From Solirubrobacteraceae bacterium (GTDB taxonomy: Bacteria > Actinomycetota > Thermoleophilia > Solirubrobacterales > Solirubrobacteraceae): 60,408 bases of DNA. Shown here in pieces: positions 1,013 through 60,408 of the stretch. The stretch is from assembly GCA_024711025.1 (NCBI GenBank), contig JANJTP010000030.1:1-60408 (forward strand). The letters run 5' to 3'. Positions within the stretch are counted from its first letter, which is position 1. Each line of letters opens with the position of its first letter. The notes under the pieces are model-generated. The model had not been told where the DNA came from, searched no databases, and saw nothing but the letters and a program-made list of their open reading frames with translations. The position numbers were made by a program, and so were the translations under genes.

Positions 1013-2869
1013 CTACCCCTCGACCGATTTCGTCTGGTCGAGGGCCGCCCCGAGCTGGCGCTCGAGCGCCGCGCGCAGCTCGTCGCGGCGGTGCACGAGC
1101 TCGACGAGCCCCGCGCCCCCGGCCGCCTTCGCCGCGACGATCTCGCGGTCGGCGCGGGCGACGCGCATCCGCAGCCGCTCGGCTTCCAGGGCCGCGCGCG
1201 TCGCGTCCGCCTGCGCGGCGCGAACCTGGAGCTCGGCGACGATGCGCGTCAGCTCCTCGTCGCCCGGCGGCGCCTGGAGCGGCCGCCCGGGCCACTCGAG
1301 CAGCATCGCGGCGACGCGCCGATGCGCCGGTACGGTGATGTCTTGCTCGATGTCGAAGCCGGCGAGCGCCGCGGCTCCGTCTTCCGGCAGCGCCAGGCAC
1401 TGCGCCAGGAATGCGCGCTCGATCCGGCCGGCCTGGTCGAGGGTCGCCGTCATCCGCGACCGCCGGTCGTCGGCGGGCCGCACTCCCACCATCGGCCGGT
1501 TCCCGGGCTCGCCGCCGGGTGTCGAGGGCCTCCGCCCCGGCGTGGCGTGTCGCTCCTCCGCCCGCCCTCCCGGGAAGAGCCACTCGCGAAGCTTTGCCGG
1601 CGAGGCGCCGAGTCGGTCCGCCGCGAGCTCGAGCAGCTCGTCGCGCAGCGCGCTGGCCGGCAGGTCGGCGAAGACCGGCTGCAACGCCGAGACGGCCTCG
1701 TCCTTGCCCTCGGCATCGGCCAGGTCGTCGCGATCGAGCGCGCGCTCGACGCGGAAGCGCACGAACGGGACCGACGCGCGAACGCGCTCGAGCATGCCCT
1801 CTGCGCCCTCGGACAGCAGTAGGTCGGCCGGGTCCTGGCCGCGTGGAAGCGGCACGACCCGCAGCTCCAGCCGGCGTCCGGCGGCGACGCGCGCGGCGCG
1901 CATCATCGCCTGCTGACCGGCGCTGTCGGCGTCGAGCGCGAGCAGGACGACCGGCGCAAGCCGCGTCAGCTCGCCGACCTGGTCGTCGGTGAGCGCCGTC
2001 CCCATGAGCCCGACGACGTTGCGCAGCCCCGCCTGGTGCAGCGCGATGACGTCCGTGTAGCCCTCGCAGAGCACCACGTGGCCCGCCTTCGCGGCGGCGG
2101 TACGCGCGAGGTCGGCGCCGAACAGGTGGCGGCCCTTGTGGAAGACATCGTTGTCGGTCGAGTTGACGTACTTCGGCTGCTGCGTCGGGCCCACGGCCCT
2201 GCCGCCGAAGCCGAGCACCCGGCCGCGGGCGTCGCACAGCGGGAACTGGATCCGCCGACGGAAGAAGTCGAACAGGCGGCCGTTGCGACCGCGGCGAACG
2301 AGCCCGGCATCCCACAGCTCGCGGGCGCTGAAGCCGCCGCGCCGGGACGCGAGCAGGAGGCCGTCCCACTGGCTGGGTGCGTAGCCGACGCGGAACGCCC
2401 GCAGCGCCTGCTCCTCGAGCCCGCGCTCGGCGAGATAGCGCCTTGGGCCGGCCGCCTCGTCCGACTCCCAGAGCGTCCGCACGTACCACGCGGCCGTTCG
2501 CTCGAGCAGCTCGAGCAGCCGCTCGCGCTTCCTGCGGCTCTCCGCCGCGCGGGGGTCCTCGTCGGCGACGTCGAGCGTGACGCCGTAGCGGTCGGCAAGA
2601 TGCTCGACCGCCTCGCGGAAGCCGAGCCCCTCGGTCAGCTCGACGAACCGGAACAGGTCGCCGCCCTCGCCGCAGCCGAAGCAGTGGAACACCTTGCTCT
2701 CGGCATCGACGCTGAAAGACGGCGTGCGCTCGTCATGGAACGGGCACGCTCCCATCCACTGCTGGCCGGCGCGCCGCAGCTCGGTCCGCGCGCCGACGAG
2801 GTCGAGCATGTCCACGGCCTGGCGGACGCGCTCGATCGACTCCTCGCTGTAGCGAGCCACGCCGCTCAA
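1013..2869 (-). CDS. dnaG: DNA primase DnaG
   Basis: 618 aa, typical length. It makes RNA primers at the replication fork and works with the DnaB helicase. The N-terminal CHC2 zinc ribbon is intact (C42, H45, C63, C66). The catalytic core contains a TOPRIM domain with the acidic motif CEGYTDVIALHQAG and LDADSAGQQA. The C-terminal third is the helicase-binding region, with a low-conservation Arg/Pro-rich linker before it. It follows dgt with a 22-bp gap on the same strand, a common actinobacterial arrangement (dgt-dnaG). The ATG start gives MSGVARYSEESIERV, matching the family N-terminus. Confidence 0.98.
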   Translation of the reverse strand: MSGVARYSEESIERVRQAVDMLDLVGARTELRRAGQQWMGACPFHDERTPSFSVDAESKVFHCFGCGEGGDLFRFVELTEGLGFREAVEHLADRYGVTLDVADEDPRAAESRRKRERLLELLERTAAWYVRTLWESDEAAGPRRYLAERGLEEQALRAFRVGYAPSQWDGLLLASRRGGFSARELWDAGLVRRGRNGRLFDFFRRRIQFPLCDARGRVLGFGGRAVGPTQQPKYVNSTDNDVFHKGRHLFGADLARTAAAKAGHVVLCEGYTDVIALHQAGLRNVVGLMGTALTDDQVGELTRLAPVVLLALDADSAGQQAMMRAARVAAGRRLELRVVPLPRGQDPADLLLSEGAEGMLERVRASVPFVRFRVERALDRDDLADAEGKDEAVSALQPVFADLPASALRDELLELAADRLGASPAKLREWLFPGGRAEERHATPGRRPSTPGGEPGNRPMVGVRPADDRRSRMTATLDQAGRIERAFLAQCLALPEDGAAALAGFDIEQDITVPAHRRVAAMLLEWPGRPLQAPPGDEELTRIVAELQVRAAQADATRAALEAERLRMRVARADREIVAAKAAGGAGLVELVHRRDELRAALERQLGAALDQTKSVEG

Positions 2870-2891
2870 CCTAGAGGATCTGCCGCGCGCG

Positions 2892-3935
2892 TCAGGCGGC
2901 GAACGACTCGGGCACCGTGAGCTGCTCGAATGCCCTGACGCAGTAGCGATCGGTCATCCCGGCGATGTAGTCGGTGACGCGCCGGCCAAGATCGGCGTCG
3001 GGCGCGCCGCCGCCGTCGGGTATCCGCTCGGGGGCGCCGGCGTAGTGGTCGAACAGCGTGCGTATGACGCGCTCGATGCGCTCGTGCTCCGCTCGGGCCG
3101 GCGGCCCGAGGTAGACGTGCTCGAACATCCACGAACGCAGATCGTCCATCGCCGCGCCCGCCTCGTCGCCCTGGGCGATGTCGCCCGCCTGCGCCGAGCG
3201 CTCGACGAGGTCGTGGACGAGCGCGTCGATCCGCCTGGGCCCGCTGCGCCCGAGGACCGCGATCGCCGCCCGGGGCAGGTCGCCCTCGGATATCGCGCCG
3301 GCGCGCAGGGCGTCGTCGATGTCGTGGTTCACGTACGCGATGCGGTCGACGATCCGCACGATCCGGCCTTCGAGGGTCCTCGGCATCGGCGCCCGCCCCG
3401 AGTGGCGCGCGATGCCGTCGCGAACGTCGTCGCCGAGGTTGAGCCCCGCTCCGTCCCGCTCGAGCACGTCGACGACCCGCAGCGAGTGCTCGTAGTGGCG
3501 GAATCCGTCGGCGCCGAAGCGCTCGCGCAGGCAGGCGTCGAGCACCCCCTCGCCGATGTGCCCGAACGGCGGGTGGCCGAGGTCGTGGCCCAGGCCGATG
3601 GCCTCGGTCAGGTCCTCGTTGAGCCTCAGCGCGCGGGCCACCGTTCGAGCGATCTGCGTGACCTCGAGCGTGTGCGTGAGGCGTGTGCGGTAGTGGTCGC
3701 CCTCGGGCGAGACGAAGACCTGCGTCTTGTGCTTCAGGCGCCGGAACGCCTTCGAGTGCACGATCCGGTCGCGGTCGCGCTGCAGCGGCGAGCGCAGCGG
3801 GCAGTCTGGCTCGGCCACGCGCCGTCGCGCCGGCCAGGAGCGCGCCGCGAGCGGCGAGAGCATCGCCCGCTCGAGCGCCGCGCGCTGCTCGGCGAAGGCG
3901 CCGGCGACCGGACCGGGCTGGGCATGCGGATCCAC
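2892..3935 (-). CDS. dgt: Deoxyguanosinetriphosphate triphosphohydrolase-like protein
   Basis: About 347 aa. It hydrolyses dNTPs, classically dGTP, to deoxynucleoside and triphosphate, and so shapes the dNTP pool. HD-superfamily metal motifs are visible: RLTHTLEVTQIAR followed by GHDLGHPPFGHIGE, plus a later HSLRVVDVLE and an aspartate in VDRIAYVNHDIDDA. The open frame extends upstream to 4133. I place the start at GTG 3935 because GAGGA lies 5 bases before it and the longer N-terminus is Arg/Pro-rich, low-complexity sequence. It lies 106 bp downstream of recO and 22 bp upstream of dnaG, suggesting one transcript. Confidence 0.93.
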   Translation of the reverse strand: MDPHAQPGPVAGAFAEQRAALERAMLSPLAARSWPARRRVAEPDCPLRSPLQRDRDRIVHSKAFRRLKHKTQVFVSPEGDHYRTRLTHTLEVTQIARTVARALRLNEDLTEAIGLGHDLGHPPFGHIGEGVLDACLRERFGADGFRHYEHSLRVVDVLERDGAGLNLGDDVRDGIARHSGRAPMPRTLEGRIVRIVDRIAYVNHDIDDALRAGAISEGDLPRAAIAVLGRSGPRRIDALVHDLVERSAQAGDIAQGDEAGAAMDDLRSWMFEHVYLGPPARAEHERIERVIRTLFDHYAGAPERIPDGGGAPDADLGRRVTDYIAGMTDRYCVRAFEQLTVPESFAA

Positions 3936-53226: not shown

Positions 53227-53965
53227 TCAGCAAACCATGCGCATGACCAGACCGACGGAGTCGGCCTCGCCGCCGAGTTGCTCGTAGTCGTCGGCGCGTA
53301 GGTGCAGCGCGGTGTCAAGCGCGGCCAGCGCGTCAAGTGCATCAGCCAGCTCTGCGCCTCCGCTGCCTGTCTGGAAGCCGGCCGGCGCGTCGAGCACCGA
53401 CGGTAAGCGGCAGCCGAGCGGGCGCAGCCGCTCAGCTTGCCCGCCGACGCTCTTCTTGTCGCGCAACACCTGCCCCTCGGCCAGCCTTCGGAACGACAGC
53501 TCGGGATGGCATTCGTACAGCCAGTCCTGCGCGCCCGGATGCGAGCGCATATACAGGTCAGCCTCGCGCATCTTCGGCGCAATGCCGAACGCCTGCGCGC
53601 TGAGGCCCTTGGTCGTCGGCGCCTCGGCTTTGGCGGCCGCGATGAGCTCGCGCGCGTGCACGTAATTGGTAGCTTCGAGCACGGGCGCCGCCATGGCGGA
53701 GCGAAGACCGTGCTCGCCCGTTCACGCCCCAGCAGCTTGCGCGCCTGGCGGTCACCCGACCGCAGGTCAACGCTGCCCAGCAATCCCATGAGGACGTCGA
53801 CCGCCAACGGCGCGGTCTCGGCATCGCGCAGCGAGACCAGTTCGTCGAAGTCCCGTCGAGCCTCGGCTCGACGCGGTCGATGTGACTATCGCGATGGCCG
53901 AAACCGAGCGCTGCCAGCCACCCTCCGCGGGCGCCATCGCCACCAAGGGCCAAGAGTTCGCTCAT
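53227..53965 (-). pseudogene. DUF429 family gene broken by two frameshifts
   Basis: Three consecutive frames must be joined. Fragment 1 starts at ATG 53965 (MSELLALGGDGARGGWLAA). Fragment 2 reads DFDELVSLRDAETAPLAVDV and LLGRERASTVFAPP (about 53830-53700). Fragment 3 begins near VLEATNYVHARELIAAAK, includes KGLSAQAFGIAPKMREAD and HPELSFRRL, and ends at 53227. The joined product has the DUF429 (predicted RNase H-like) layout. Either the gene has decayed or the sequence contains indels. Confidence 0.8.
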
Positions 53966-53997
53966 TGGGCCGCACGCTACGCCAGCCCGCCGCGGCG

Positions 53998-54795
53998 ATG
54001 AATCGTCCGCTCGTATCGCCAGCATCGTCGGTCGTGCCCAACCATCTCGACTTCCTGGCCGCGCTTGACGACGCCACACGCGCAGCGGACCGCGCGTACG
54101 TGATGTCCGGACAAGCGATGGTGGAGGTCGCTCGGCACGCGCGCCTGAGCACGGACTGGGACGAGGTCGCGCGCTGGACCGGTGAGCTGGTCGCCGAGGG
54201 ATACGTTCTTCACGGTCCTAAGTCAGATACTCGACCCTTGCCGCCGCCCGGGGTGTCCTGGATGTCCCACGACCTCAGTCGCGTGGCCGATTACCGGCTG
54301 ACCGGCAATGGCCGGCAGGAGGCACAACGCACCCGCGAGCATGCCCGGCGAGAGCGGACCGACACCGCACTCGGTCTGCGCTACCCGCAGCTCGCTCGTC
54401 CCTGGATGAGCGATGCCCAAGCGCGCGCGATCGCCGAGCCACTAGACCGCCTTCGTGACGCGCTGGACGCCGGCCGGCCGGTGCCGGCCATCGGCGCCGC
54501 CAAGGACCTCGTGGAGGCTGCCTGCAAGGTCGCCATGCACCACGGCGGGAAGGAGCCCGCCAGCGGCGAGTCGCTGACCAGCCTGTTCAAGGCCGCCGCG
54601 GCTGTGCTGCCCGATACGGGCCACGACGAACAGCTCGGCCGTCGGCTCGCCTCAGTGGTCCACCAGCTTGGGGAGCTTCGCAATGCCACTGGCGCTGGCC
54701 ACGGCCAGGCAACCCTGACCGACGTCCCCGCAGGCGACGCGCGGCTGGCGGCGGCTGCCGCCGTGGCACTCGCGGACTTCGTACTTGGCGAGTAG
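53998..54795 (+). CDS. Abi_C (abortive infection C-terminal) domain protein
   Basis: 265 aa. Residues about 30-110 look like a winged helix (VEVARHARLSTDWDEVARWT ... ADYRLTGNGRQEA). Residues 165-245 match the Abi_C domain: AAKDLVEAACKVAMHH, SLTSLFKAAAAVL and LASVVHQLGELRNATGAGHG. Such domains occur in phage-exclusion proteins and may sense or bind nucleic acid. ATG 53998 is 32 bp from the divergent DUF429 remnant. The frame is intact, unlike its neighbours. Confidence 0.82.
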   Translation: MNRPLVSPASSVVPNHLDFLAALDDATRAADRAYVMSGQAMVEVARHARLSTDWDEVARWTGELVAEGYVLHGPKSDTRPLPPPGVSWMSHDLSRVADYRLTGNGRQEAQRTREHARRERTDTALGLRYPQLARPWMSDAQARAIAEPLDRLRDALDAGRPVPAIGAAKDLVEAACKVAMHHGGKEPASGESLTSLFKAAAAVLPDTGHDEQLGRRLASVVHQLGELRNATGAGHGQATLTDVPAGDARLAAAAAVALADFVLGE

Positions 54796-57110: not shown

Positions 57111-57488
57111 CGCTGGGCGTTCTCGGACCTGCTTGACAGCACGTGCTGGCGTGCTGGCGGAGTTCTTGGCCACTGCCGCCCTCGACCGTACGCGGACCCG
57201 CCGACGCACCCGCGAGCTAAGGAGCCGCCTGGAAGGTTCGAGTTCGTCGAACTTTTCGGTTCGGTCTAGCCGAACTCCCCGCCCACCGCCCCGGCGAGGC
57301 TACTCGTTGCCCCATGCCGGTCCGGCGGACTTGTCGGTGGTTTCCTGCCTTTGGCGGAGCTCGCCGCTGTCGTCTGCCGCTACGACGCGAGTCGAGAACA
57401 CGACGTATGACCGCGGATACAACGGCCGTCTTACCCGCGGTAAGACGCCGCGGCCCGTCGTGGTCAGCGGGCCGGGTACGCTGGCCCT
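57111..57488. other. 378-bp intergenic region with two adjacent palindromes
   Basis: No gene recognised. It includes AGTTCG-T-CGAACT (57241-57253) and GTTCGG-N5-CCGAAC (57259-57275), listed as a finding. A TACGCT about 10 bp before the ATG at 57489 could be a -10 box. Confidence 0.55.
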
Positions 57489-58100
57489 ATGGCCAGCGGC
57501 AGTGCTCGAACGGGTGCCGCGGGCGCCTTCTACACCGCGGCCTTGTTGGCCAGCACGGCTGGGATGCGAGCCTGACGGTCAGCAACGTGCCGCGCACCGA
57601 CATCGTCGCCCAGCACCACGAACACCAGACGCTCATCGCCGTTCAGTGCAAGGTTACGGCCGGGAGCCAGACGTTCCTGCTCAACACGGGGCCGAGCCGG
57701 CCGGGGCGCAACAAGTGGTTCATCCTGGTGGCGCTGCGCGGCGGCGTGCGGGCCGACTTCTTCATCATGCCGCGCAACGTGCCGCCGCGTACGTGTTCGT
57801 CGGCCACCGAGCCTGGCTGGCGGTGCCGGGCAAGACCGGCAAGCCGCATCAGCCCAACTCCATGCGCGAAATCGAACAGCCCGCCGCCAAGTACTCCAGG
57901 GAGCGCTGGGACCTTCTGGTGCACGCGGCCGACACGGTCCCGTGCTGGCTGCCCGATTGGGTCTTCGACTGGCTACGCGCACCGGGGTGCCCGCCGGCCA
58001 TCCCGGCCTCATCAAGCCGACGTACGGCGTGACGAGCGCCGACGACGCCGCGTGGGTGACCACCTGGCTTCCACCGGTCACACCGGCGCCTGTACGCTGA
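57489..58100 (+). pseudogene. PD-(D/E)XK nuclease-like (DUF4365-type) gene with three frameshifts
   Basis: The joined frames give about 203 aa. They read MASGSARTGAAGAFYTAALL, HGWDASLTVSNVPRTDIVAQ, LIAVQCKVTAGSQTFLLN, FILVALRGGVRADFFIMP, AYVFVGHRAWLAVPGKTGKP, LLVHAADTVPCWLPDWVFDW and IKPTYGVTSADDAAWVTTWL, with the stop at 58100. The TDIV ... QCK spacing is the PD-(D/E)XK core. Shifts fall near 57555, 57785 and 58010. It is convergent with the Mrr-like gene. Confidence 0.75.
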
Positions 58101-58189
58101 CGGCCGCCGCGACGCGGGTACGCCGGGAGTCCTCGACTCACACGCGCCGAGCCCCGGCCGCCGACCTTCGGCTGGTGTTCGTTGCCGGT

Positions 58190-60073
58190 CTACAGCCGGT
58201 AGAGGAGATGGGCCGGACCCTGCTGCGGCGTCCAGATGCGTGACGGCCTCGCTCTGGCCTCGGCGGCGCCGTTCTGGTCGTCGGTGACCAGCCGGAACGG
58301 GATGCTCGTGGCGTGGGTGCGCAGTCGCACCCGGGTCTTGCCCGGGACCGGGCTCTGCTCCTTGGTGAAGAACTCCGCTTGCGGCGTCTCAAACTCCGCG
58401 AGCCCGAGGAGCACCTGCTGGCCGAAGATGGGCACCCGTAGCGGGATGCGGCTGGGGTGACCGGCCGAGGCCTTGGTGAGGAAGTGGTCGACGCCGGCGT
58501 GGTCGATGTCCATGACGAGTTCGGTGATGGACACCGTCGCGCGGCCGGTCTTCAGCACGAGCGCCGCGGTGAGGACCTCGTCGAACTCGCCGCGGGTCAT
58601 CTCCTCCGGCACGTCGACTGGGCCGACGTGCTGCTCGATGACCGTGAGCGCCTCGTGCAGCTCGATGGAAAGGCGCAGATGGGTGACCGCCTCGGCGTCC
58701 ACGGCCGCCGTGGCGTCGCCGGCGACGGTCAGGCCACCATCAGGAAGCAGCCCCGGCGCCTCGCAGGCCACCGCCTCGGCCTGCAGGAACGCGAGCTGGA
58801 ACCTGGCCGCGGCCGCGTTGATGGCCGGGTTACGGGCCGGCCGCGTCGACAGCCCGAGGTTCAGATGCACCGCGAGGGTGCCCGGCTCGAAGTCGGCAAA
58901 GAGCGCCAGGCCATCCACGATGGCGCCGAAGGACAGGTGATGGCCAGGCCTAGGCGGGATGGGCCTGACGGCGAACGACCGGCTGAGGGCGTCTTCGCCC
59001 GTGCCCAGCGTCACCGTCATCATCGTCGGCTCGCCTGGCAGCATCCTCGTCGAGGTGTGGTCGAAGCCCTCCGCGGCGATGCTCTCGTACGCCTCCTTGA
59101 CGACCACCGGCGGGTTCTCGACCTGCAGCCAGACGCCGTCGGTCAGCTCGACCTCCTCACCGGCCGCGAGGCCCTCCCGCGCTCGCTCCCGCGCGCGGGC
59201 GCCAGCCTCGTCGTCGGTGAACCCGGCCGTCGCCGCGGCGTTTGCCTCGGGACGAAGGTGCGCCTCGGTCCGCAGCCGTTGTTTGCCGCGCAGTTCCTGG
59301 ATGACCATGAACGGCGGGTTGTCGGTCAGGACGGGGGCGTCGACCGACGCGCCAACCCTGATGACGTACTCGAAGCTCGGGTCGACCGTGTCGGCGAAGT
59401 CCGCCAAAGCGAACGCACGGTCGGCGAGGTCACGGGTCGTCTGCAGCTCCTTGCCGCCCTGAGCCACGGCGCGCAGCACCGCAGGCAGCACGTCGTCGAC
59501 CTTGTCGCCGAAGTACCTCTGTGCGATATCGGCGTTCGCCGCGAGGCGCTCCTGGATGTGCGTCAGACCCCAGTGGCGGACGTCCACGTCGGGATGGCGC
59601 GCAACCAGGCGCTGCTCGAAGTCGCGGCGGCGGCTGGCACTAAGGTTGCGCGGGAAGACGAACACGACCTTCTCCGGGTCATAATTCTTGACCGCGTCGT
59701 CGAGCGACTTCTCGCACTTCGACCACGAGATGGCGTCCGGGTAGTGCTTGACCTGCCAGATCCGAGCGGGCCACCCGCGCCGCGCTGGCACGAGGACGTC
59801 GGCGCCGCCGTCGGGCGCCGAGGGCTTCTCGGCGTCGGGTTCCTCAGCGAAGACTAGGCTCGCGACCAGCTGCTCGAAGCGCTCGTCGCCGAGGTCCGCC
59901 AAATCCCGAGCTGTGACCTCCCGTGGCACGGCTACACGGTAGGCCGGGCGGCGGCGGACCGCGTCGGGGAACAGACCTCCGACGAGATTCAGGGCAGGGA
60001 CAATCCAGTCTGCGTGCTCGGCGCTGAGGCGAACGGCGACCGCCCGCAGGAAGCACGGAACCAGGAGCACCAA
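58190..60073 (-). CDS. Large Mrr-like restriction endonuclease-domain protein
   Basis: 627 aa. Residues about 60-160 are an Mrr-type nuclease domain: DERFEQLVASLVF (Glu67), DGGADVLVP (Asp92), IWQVKHYP (Gln107, Lys109) and VVFVFPRNLSASRRRDFE. The remaining 450 residues are unrecognised, with several beta-rich blocks (LQVENPPVVVKEAYES, TMMTVTLGTGEDALSRSF, HLNLGLSTRPARNPAINAA). Possible starts are TTG 60073, GTG 60070 and GTG 59929; I keep the longest because its N-terminus looks natural. It is intact in an otherwise decayed block, and a role in anti-phage restriction is plausible. Confidence 0.78.
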   Translation of the reverse strand: MVLLVPCFLRAVAVRLSAEHADWIVPALNLVGGLFPDAVRRRPAYRVAVPREVTARDLADLGDERFEQLVASLVFAEEPDAEKPSAPDGGADVLVPARRGWPARIWQVKHYPDAISWSKCEKSLDDAVKNYDPEKVVFVFPRNLSASRRRDFEQRLVARHPDVDVRHWGLTHIQERLAANADIAQRYFGDKVDDVLPAVLRAVAQGGKELQTTRDLADRAFALADFADTVDPSFEYVIRVGASVDAPVLTDNPPFMVIQELRGKQRLRTEAHLRPEANAAATAGFTDDEAGARARERAREGLAAGEEVELTDGVWLQVENPPVVVKEAYESIAAEGFDHTSTRMLPGEPTMMTVTLGTGEDALSRSFAVRPIPPRPGHHLSFGAIVDGLALFADFEPGTLAVHLNLGLSTRPARNPAINAAAARFQLAFLQAEAVACEAPGLLPDGGLTVAGDATAAVDAEAVTHLRLSIELHEALTVIEQHVGPVDVPEEMTRGEFDEVLTAALVLKTGRATVSITELVMDIDHAGVDHFLTKASAGHPSRIPLRVPIFGQQVLLGLAEFETPQAEFFTKEQSPVPGKTRVRLRTHATSIPFRLVTDDQNGAAEARARPSRIWTPQQGPAHLLYRL

Positions 60074-60248: not shown

Positions 60249-60408
60249 CTACTTAATCTGGTCATACACCTTGAACAGCGGCAGGTACATCGAGATGACG
60301 ATGAACCCGACCATGCCGCCGACGACGACGAGCATCAGGGGCTCGAGGATCGAGGTGAGGGCCTTGACGGAGGCGTCGACCTGGTCCTCGTAGAAGTCGG
60401 CGATCTTG
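60249..60408 (-). CDS. pilC: Type IV pilus platform protein PilC/GspF, C-terminal end (partial)
   Basis: Only the last 52 codons are in the window. KIADFYEDQVDASVKALTS, then LEPLMLVVVGGMVGFIVISM and YLPLFKVYDQIK is the hallmark end of PilC/GspF, the inner-membrane platform that works with the pilus ATPases. It is on the same strand as pilA but 26 kb upstream of it. The start and pilB/pilT would lie beyond the right edge. Confidence 0.93.
   Translation of the reverse strand, partial: KIADFYEDQVDASVKALTSILEPLMLVVVGGMVGFIVISMYLPLFKVYDQIK

Follow-up and report, generated by a model that had tools for sequence, protein, structure and literature searches.

Does the reading frame at one end of a Solirubrobacteraceae contig (P0001), which an initial annotation had described as an Mrr-like nuclease with a large C-terminal region of no recognised fold, encode a defence system of a single gene? 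The window, i.e. the stretch of DNA analysed here, is the whole contig of 60,408 nucleotides. We favour, with a probability of roughly 0.55, the reading that P0001 is a solitary nuclease of a patchily distributed family, carries a C-terminal region that gates the nuclease, and most likely acts in defence against mobile elements. If this is right, an unnamed family of solitary nucleases joins the defence repertoire of the actinobacteria, a phylum not represented by the handful of model organisms used to test defence (PMC10482375).

The reading frame and its surroundings

The frame and its neighbours in the window are as follows.

58190..60073, minus strand: P0001, 627 aa with a TTG start at 60073
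59929 and 59902, minus strand: alternative starts of P0001, GTG (579 aa) and TTG (570 aa, GGGAGG about 14 nt upstream), respectively
60249..60407, minus strand: end of pilC (T2SSF), which P0001 follows on the same strand
57314..58141, plus strand: overlapping frames (on both strands) without family match, between the DUF5677 gene and P0001
56143..57006, plus strand: DUF5677 protein of 287 aa, no PADLOC match up to E 1
53437..54795, plus strand: Abi_C protein of 452 aa, PADLOC match to AbiJ (E 7e-4)
53227..53694, minus strand: partial DUF429 gene beside Abi_C, matching model positions 89-212 of 214

The P0001 frame is real and coding: it is open between these coordinates, and its stop-to-stop G+C content by codon position (0.73/0.47/0.89) is that of the coding frames in this contig of 73% G+C. 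Another frame (58457-59857, plus strand) lies antisense to it. The annotated length of 627 aa holds as an open frame but is probably an over-call, as homology to relatives starts near residue 57 and favours 579 or 570 aa. The alignment to the family profile described below begins at residue 60 and those to two relatives (L003 and L004) at residues 47-49, and the first ~46-48 residues find support from no relative aligned. GTG 59929 or TTG 59902 is thus the likelier true start over TTG 60073, GTG 59929 because of that onset of homology near residue 57; Lys109 in the 627-aa numbering is Lys61 in the 579-aa form.

The Abi_C and DUF5677 genes that had been reported nearby are both there, and the broken neighbour is borne out as well: the interval of 57.05-58.19 kb holds only overlapping or weak frames without family match, and 57314..58141 looks like a decayed gene. 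The overlapping frames at 57314-58032, which contain a VQCK motif, presumably resemble a small PD-(D/E)XK-like protein; one open piece of them had no match in the plasmids. Beyond the DUF5677 gene, the Abi_C gene and the DUF429 piece lie genes with housekeeping-type matches. The pilC residues of the window also stand at the start of another contig, C61, which holds the remainder of the gene as well as pilT and pilB frames (by eye). C61 would adjoin the contig of P0001, since the pilC residues overlap. What stands after pilC differs among related genomes of the order; by eye, the genes there include a transporter, an HTH protein accompanied by another small gene, and a pilin.

The N-terminal nuclease domain

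P0001 was divided into three parts, given here in the 627-aa numbering.

59489..59905, minus strand: PD-(D/E)XK nuclease domain of the Mrr type, residues ~57-195, catalytic E67, D92, Q107 and K109
59042..59488, minus strand: middle region, residues ~196-344, predicted helices followed by beta strands, model confidence partly below 50
58274..59041, minus strand: C-terminal module, residues ~345-600, also present in nuclease-less proteins, three of them in toxin-antitoxin-like operons

The motifs on which the nuclease had been called, DGGAD (residues 88-92) and QVK (residues 107-109), are present, and their catalytic residues are kept in an alignment of 62 rows that includes P0001. The lysine of QxK is found in all 62 rows, each time after Q or E, and position 67 is E or D in 47 of the 50 non-gap rows. 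D92 is kept in 61/61 non-gap rows, a conservation that is partly built in because the peptide pattern of the locus search contains this residue.

AlphaFold2 models were made of P0001 (pLDDT 74.6, pTM 0.50, thus of moderate confidence) and of a relative, L033 from Streptomyces shenzhenensis (pLDDT 90.3). Foldseek against the PDB returned no match reaching E 0.001 for either model; DnaK and PCNA rows with TM-scores near 0.1 were ignored. In a second look with VIA-align, the nuclease of Avs4 was the best match of both models over 136 residues (P0001: Z 13.2, 2.6 Å; L033: Z 13.0, 2.7 Å), AF1548 came second for both (Z 10.0 and 9.2), and AspBHI, FokI, EcoT38I and MspJI came next for P0001 (Z 9.7 to 8.6). 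These alignments are largely confined to the nuclease (residues ~1-142 in the models) and hardly reach the C-terminal fold. Among the matches listed from a viral structure library, restriction endonucleases come first. Based on its four catalytic residues and on fold matches with Z up to 13.2, the N-terminal part of P0001 is predicted to be an Mrr-type PD-(D/E)XK nuclease with its catalytic residues in place.

The nuclease nearest to that of P0001 by BLASTp among 102 proteins compared belongs to L004 (42% identity over 126 aa; 44% in the genome search), an NB-ARC/TPR protein that has only the nuclease in common with P0001.

L004 locus, 1-1878 and 2372-3361, both minus strand: NB-ARC/TPR protein with an Mrr-type nuclease and a SIR2_2 domain gene upstream, likely a defence locus

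As the closest nuclease sits in such a different protein, the similarity suggests that the nuclease has been exchanged between protein scaffolds.

P0001 as a distant member of a nuclease-module family

No match to P0001 was found in Pfam and NCBIfam up to E 10 or among PDB sequences, and a PADLOC scan gave one weak match, over the nuclease (PDC-S73, E 0.0071, residues 57-188). Queried with P0001 alone, the collections of genome contigs, plasmids and phages yielded no relatives. The family was entered through two full-length relatives from whole-genome searches, L002 (563 aa, from another class) and L003 (~600 aa, from the same family). L002 matched 18 plasmid records, all of actinomycete genera, and had no match in the phages; L003 had none in the plasmids, and the three-row alignment none in the viral contigs.

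The locus search was performed with L002 and 13 plasmid relatives, leaving out P0001 and L003. It found 79 loci in genome contigs, 60 of them with frames of 500-650 aa, and one in a viral contig (L111). As the scan used one peptide pattern from the nuclease, the true number of loci is likely higher. Of all 80 frames, 61 measure 508-636 aa (median 572), and the 19 outside 500-650 aa were omitted from the alignments and the neighbour count. Weak single matches were set aside: the frames of seven showed no nuclease-module protein (L006, L008-L010, L012-L014), and two had stops inside the weak matches (L005, L007).

A profile of the 61 relatives, seeded by L002, without P0001 and with the database size set to 2007, matched P0001 with E 5.4e-38 over residues 60-574. 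Separate pieces gave E 4e-13 (residues 201-627) and E 1.6e-8 (residues 431-627), with a weak E 0.046 for residues 221-430 alone; the best of 1000 shuffled P0001 C-termini reached E 0.42. A smaller profile of 14 rows matched the C-terminus with E 1.3e-6. P0001 had found the seed L002 through residues 64-310, so the match of the nuclease is not independent of the profile, and that of the last ~300 residues is. Membership rests on the profile, as the C-terminus has no significant pairwise BLASTp match among the proteins compared (best E 0.097); the full-length relative nearest to P0001, L003, reaches no better than E 1.2e-7 against the 61-relative profile. Judged by profile, P0001 is securely placed in the family, but as a distant member.

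The C-terminal ~430-450 residues had been described as having no recognised fold. By the homologue search with this part they are no orphan: the region is family-wide, and its module is held in common with toxin-antitoxin-like operons. A match to a known housekeeping family, named in the initial annotation as an argument against a defence role, was found for it in none of Pfam, NCBIfam and PADLOC. Over the C-termini of the 61 relatives, Pfam and NCBIfam gave no recurrent family, and the Pfam matches of the relatives beyond Mrr_cat comprise four families with one member each. A relation to the APAZ proteins that accompany short Argonautes was considered: Argonaute-associated PADLOC models were listed for a few relatives, and in one member with coordinates the Aga match lies within the nuclease; a SPARSA chain ranked fourth in Foldseek with the P0001 model (probability 0.08), with the C-terminal fold barely covered. 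Taken as chance were the six rows of the family profile against PDB sequences (best E 0.0056, haemoglobin) and the PADLOC matches to CARF6 (E 0.04) and SduA (E 0.01) at residues 165-203 of single members.

Re-use of the module in nuclease-less proteins

In three genomes (G253, G379 and G394), the match to the family profile is confined to its last ~260 positions and lies in frames of 389-425 aa without nuclease match. A 10-row alignment of the module was then searched in the class of G379, which is not that of P0001, and matched 5/39 genomes, all in frames without nuclease match. Against the 61-row profile, the E values of these five proteins and that of G253 range from 4.6e-34 to 3.5e-9, with all matches inside positions ~268-540, and the best of 1600 shuffled sequences (1200 of module proteins, 400 from two toxins) scores 0.31. 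The middle region (residues ~196-344) is unmatched in all six. The last ~250 residues of P0001 thus qualify, by sequence comparison, as a portable module that is re-used without the nuclease.

Three loci in the class of G379 have the appearance of toxin-antitoxin operons, with the module before an antitoxin-like tail or DUF433 in the first gene and a TumE- or DUF5615-type second gene.

L133, 1455-3080: toxin-antitoxin-like operon
L145, 846-2511: toxin-antitoxin-like operon
L143, 168-1926: toxin-antitoxin-like operon

The module gene of G379 is followed by a TumE toxin gene above the Pfam cut-off, and that of G130 by a gene 46% identical to this TumE. In G825 the module shares its frame with a DUF433 match, and the gene that follows matches DUF5615; both matches exceed the cut-off. 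DUF433 is an antitoxin and DUF5615 a toxin. The contigs of G394 and G387 end before any downstream gene. A TumE, a TumE relative or a DUF5615 gene therefore comes next in 3/3 loci of this class with downstream sequence. No TumE match was found in G394 and G253; the tail of the G253 protein and the gene after it presumably resemble DUF5678 and a retropepsin-like protein. TumE has been found to inhibit translation and is neutralised by its cognate partner, and the partner genes of TumE are diverse (PMC10584680).

A gene without recurrent partner in mobile settings

Neighbours of the relatives were clustered from 611 ORFs of the 61 loci, called with a home-made ORF caller. No recurrent partner gene emerged: the largest cluster spans 7/61 loci (a short-chain dehydrogenase by eye), followed by site-specific recombinases (6 loci) and integrases (4 loci). 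The P0001-family gene stands alone.

For a PADLOC scan, the nearest 150 of 344 ORFs within 3 kb were chosen and 149 scanned, one being dropped for size. At E 1e-5 they matched 173 PADLOC families, a raw count taken without a control set and of which the best 25 were listed. The strong matches listed include HamB, DrmMII, a CBASS cyclase, LmuA, type II and orphan methyltransferases, PDC-S53 and PDC-S68, with one or two proteins each, and an AbiEii gene above the Pfam cut-off lies ~1 kb from L003 with one gene between. The proposed analysis of neighbours for defence islands thus places some copies beside known defence genes, as raw counts without such a control.

By record title, 78 of the 79 genome loci belong to Actinomycetota, the taxonomy of the genera being background knowledge. 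Seventeen of the plasmid records were inspected, H17 being left aside. The annotation of 13 shows a gene of 1.6-1.8 kb, which is called a hypothetical protein in 12 records and a restriction endonuclease in one; two others have a short gene with an adjoining IS3-family transposase, and the remaining two lack an annotated gene at the matching position. Relaxase or coupling-protein genes are present in 5/17 plasmid stretches, and genes annotated as methylase, PIN, zeta or Fic in 6/17. In the viral, prophage-like contig L111 (1-6446), the family gene is located between a C5-methyltransferase with a further frame and a lysin frame (by eye). Other copies (L035, L062, L084, L098 and L099) reside on chromosomes or on contigs of several megabases.

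At E 1e-5, the family profile has matches in 13 genomes, that of P0001 included, out of 396 sampled from the phylum; several match only in part. This count is a lower bound, with three candidates scored per genome, and the profile used includes P0001. Five of the 13 (G161, G042, G195, G306 and G392) were not used, because their matches are limited to a small part of the profile's N-terminal third. Within the genus, 16 other genomes gave no match to the P0001 C-terminal query and 11 none to the whole protein, several of these genomes being incomplete. The family is scattered in the actinobacteria, patchily distributed and apparently unnamed: we recognised no description of it in literature on Mrr, Lamassu, Avs, TumE, actinobacterial defence and defence islands, a scope that mostly excludes subscription papers and preprints, and a literature search on the PADLOC candidate names gave no paper, including none that names PDC-M58A.

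Comparison with known systems

With Mrr_cat (PF04471), P0001 has in common the PD-(D/E)XK core with E...D...QxK. Eleven of the 61 relatives match this family at E 0.01 and L004 passes the cut-off, but P0001 itself has no match up to E 10. E. coli Mrr carries its nuclease behind a winged helix, whereas the nuclease of P0001 is N-terminal. The Avs4 nuclease is the best fold match, and PADLOC Avs2 matches fall over the nuclease in relatives; P0001 differs from the Avs (AVAST) and other STAND proteins in having no NTPase and no Pfam match, and a Walker A motif is absent from P0001 and all 61 relatives.

Lamassu LmuA likewise has an N-terminal nuclease followed by another region. One LmuA model is matched by 17/61 relatives at E 0.001. 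Ten members were also scanned at E 1, and eight of them have an LmuA match over the nuclease; one of the 149 scanned neighbours of relatives is itself an LmuA. The family differs from Lamassu in the lack of a recurrent partner in the 61 loci; beside P0001, no SMC-type match was found among the window neighbours scanned, and pilC, pilT and pilB (by eye) lie on the other side. The PADLOC candidate PDC-M58A is matched by 29/61 relatives at E 0.001, but its model of 154 positions covers the nuclease and stops there. The likeness to TumE-TumA lies in the module, which precedes TumE in G379 and a TumE relative in G130; those module proteins have no nuclease, however, and no TumE was found beside P0001 among the neighbours scanned.

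Gating, restriction or addiction

Any explanation has to account for the domain order, the catalytic residues, the missing recurrent partner, the frequent mobile setting and the re-use of the module, three times in toxin-antitoxin-like operons. The module is best explained as the controlling part of a killer, because it occurs in cis with a nuclease and elsewhere takes the place of the antitoxin beside toxins of two unrelated types. For P0001, this would amount to a one-protein sensor-effector. The C-terminal module would hold the nuclease silent in the healthy cell until it encounters a sign of phage or plasmid invasion; the released nuclease would then cut DNA, of the invader or of the host, leading to clearance or growth arrest and hence to anti-phage or anti-plasmid protection. 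We infer a gating role from domain company alone, in few genomes. The initial proposal of an undescribed single-gene defence system keeps its footing in the absence of a recurrent partner from 61 loci and in the plasmids, integrases and prophage-like contig, but has to accommodate the two-gene settings of the module elsewhere.

A wider version of this reading, which we put forward tentatively, makes the module a portable infection sensor or gate on unrelated killers: an Mrr-type nuclease in cis in actinomycetes, and in another class antitoxin-like parts that control TumE- or DUF5615-type toxins. One sensing domain would then trigger different lethal outputs. If our reading is right, a self-contained nuclease and toxin-antitoxin-like pairs make use of one module of ~250 residues, and the question of what this module recognises should be common to both.

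The strongest competitor, though in our judgement unlikely, is a modification-dependent restriction enzyme of type IV, in which the C-terminal region recognises modified bases and the nuclease cuts what is bound without an activation step. The Mrr type of the nuclease would suit such an enzyme, as would solitary genes without a recurrent methyltransferase partner. Among the structural neighbours, AspBHI (Z 9.7) is titled modification-dependent and MspJI (Z 8.6) is a modification-dependent enzyme too, but these matches cover the nuclease only. The occurrence of the module before TumE-type genes and fused to DUF433 beside DUF5615 is not simply explained by restriction; antitoxins often bind DNA, though, and a DNA-binding module would fit both restriction and autoregulating antitoxins.

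We consider it improbable that P0001 is an addiction element that serves the maintenance of its carrier rather than defence, with the nuclease as toxin and the C-terminal region as fused antitoxin. Plasmid and prophage-like homes and the company of toxin-antitoxin genes around the module speak for it. Nuclease and module form one chain, however, so that gene loss removes both and the usual killing of cured cells would not occur, and some copies are found on multi-megabase contigs or chromosomes. A housekeeping or repair nuclease is very hard to maintain: P0001 follows pilC on the same strand and PD-(D/E)XK nucleases also serve repair, but occurrence is patchy, with matches to the family profile, several only in part, in 13/396 genomes of the phylum (a lower bound, its own included), no match occurs in other genomes of the genus (16 searched with the C-terminal query, 11 with the whole protein), and the spot after pilC is variable between relatives.

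Single loci of the family add two observations. The only member titled outside Actinomycetota (L039) lies on a 6-kb contig of a Sphingomonas MAG and is possibly misbinned. In L015 and L018, from Rhodococcus and Hoyosella plasmids, the family gene lies between conjugation coupling-protein genes and mobF, which may be a spot for defence cargo.
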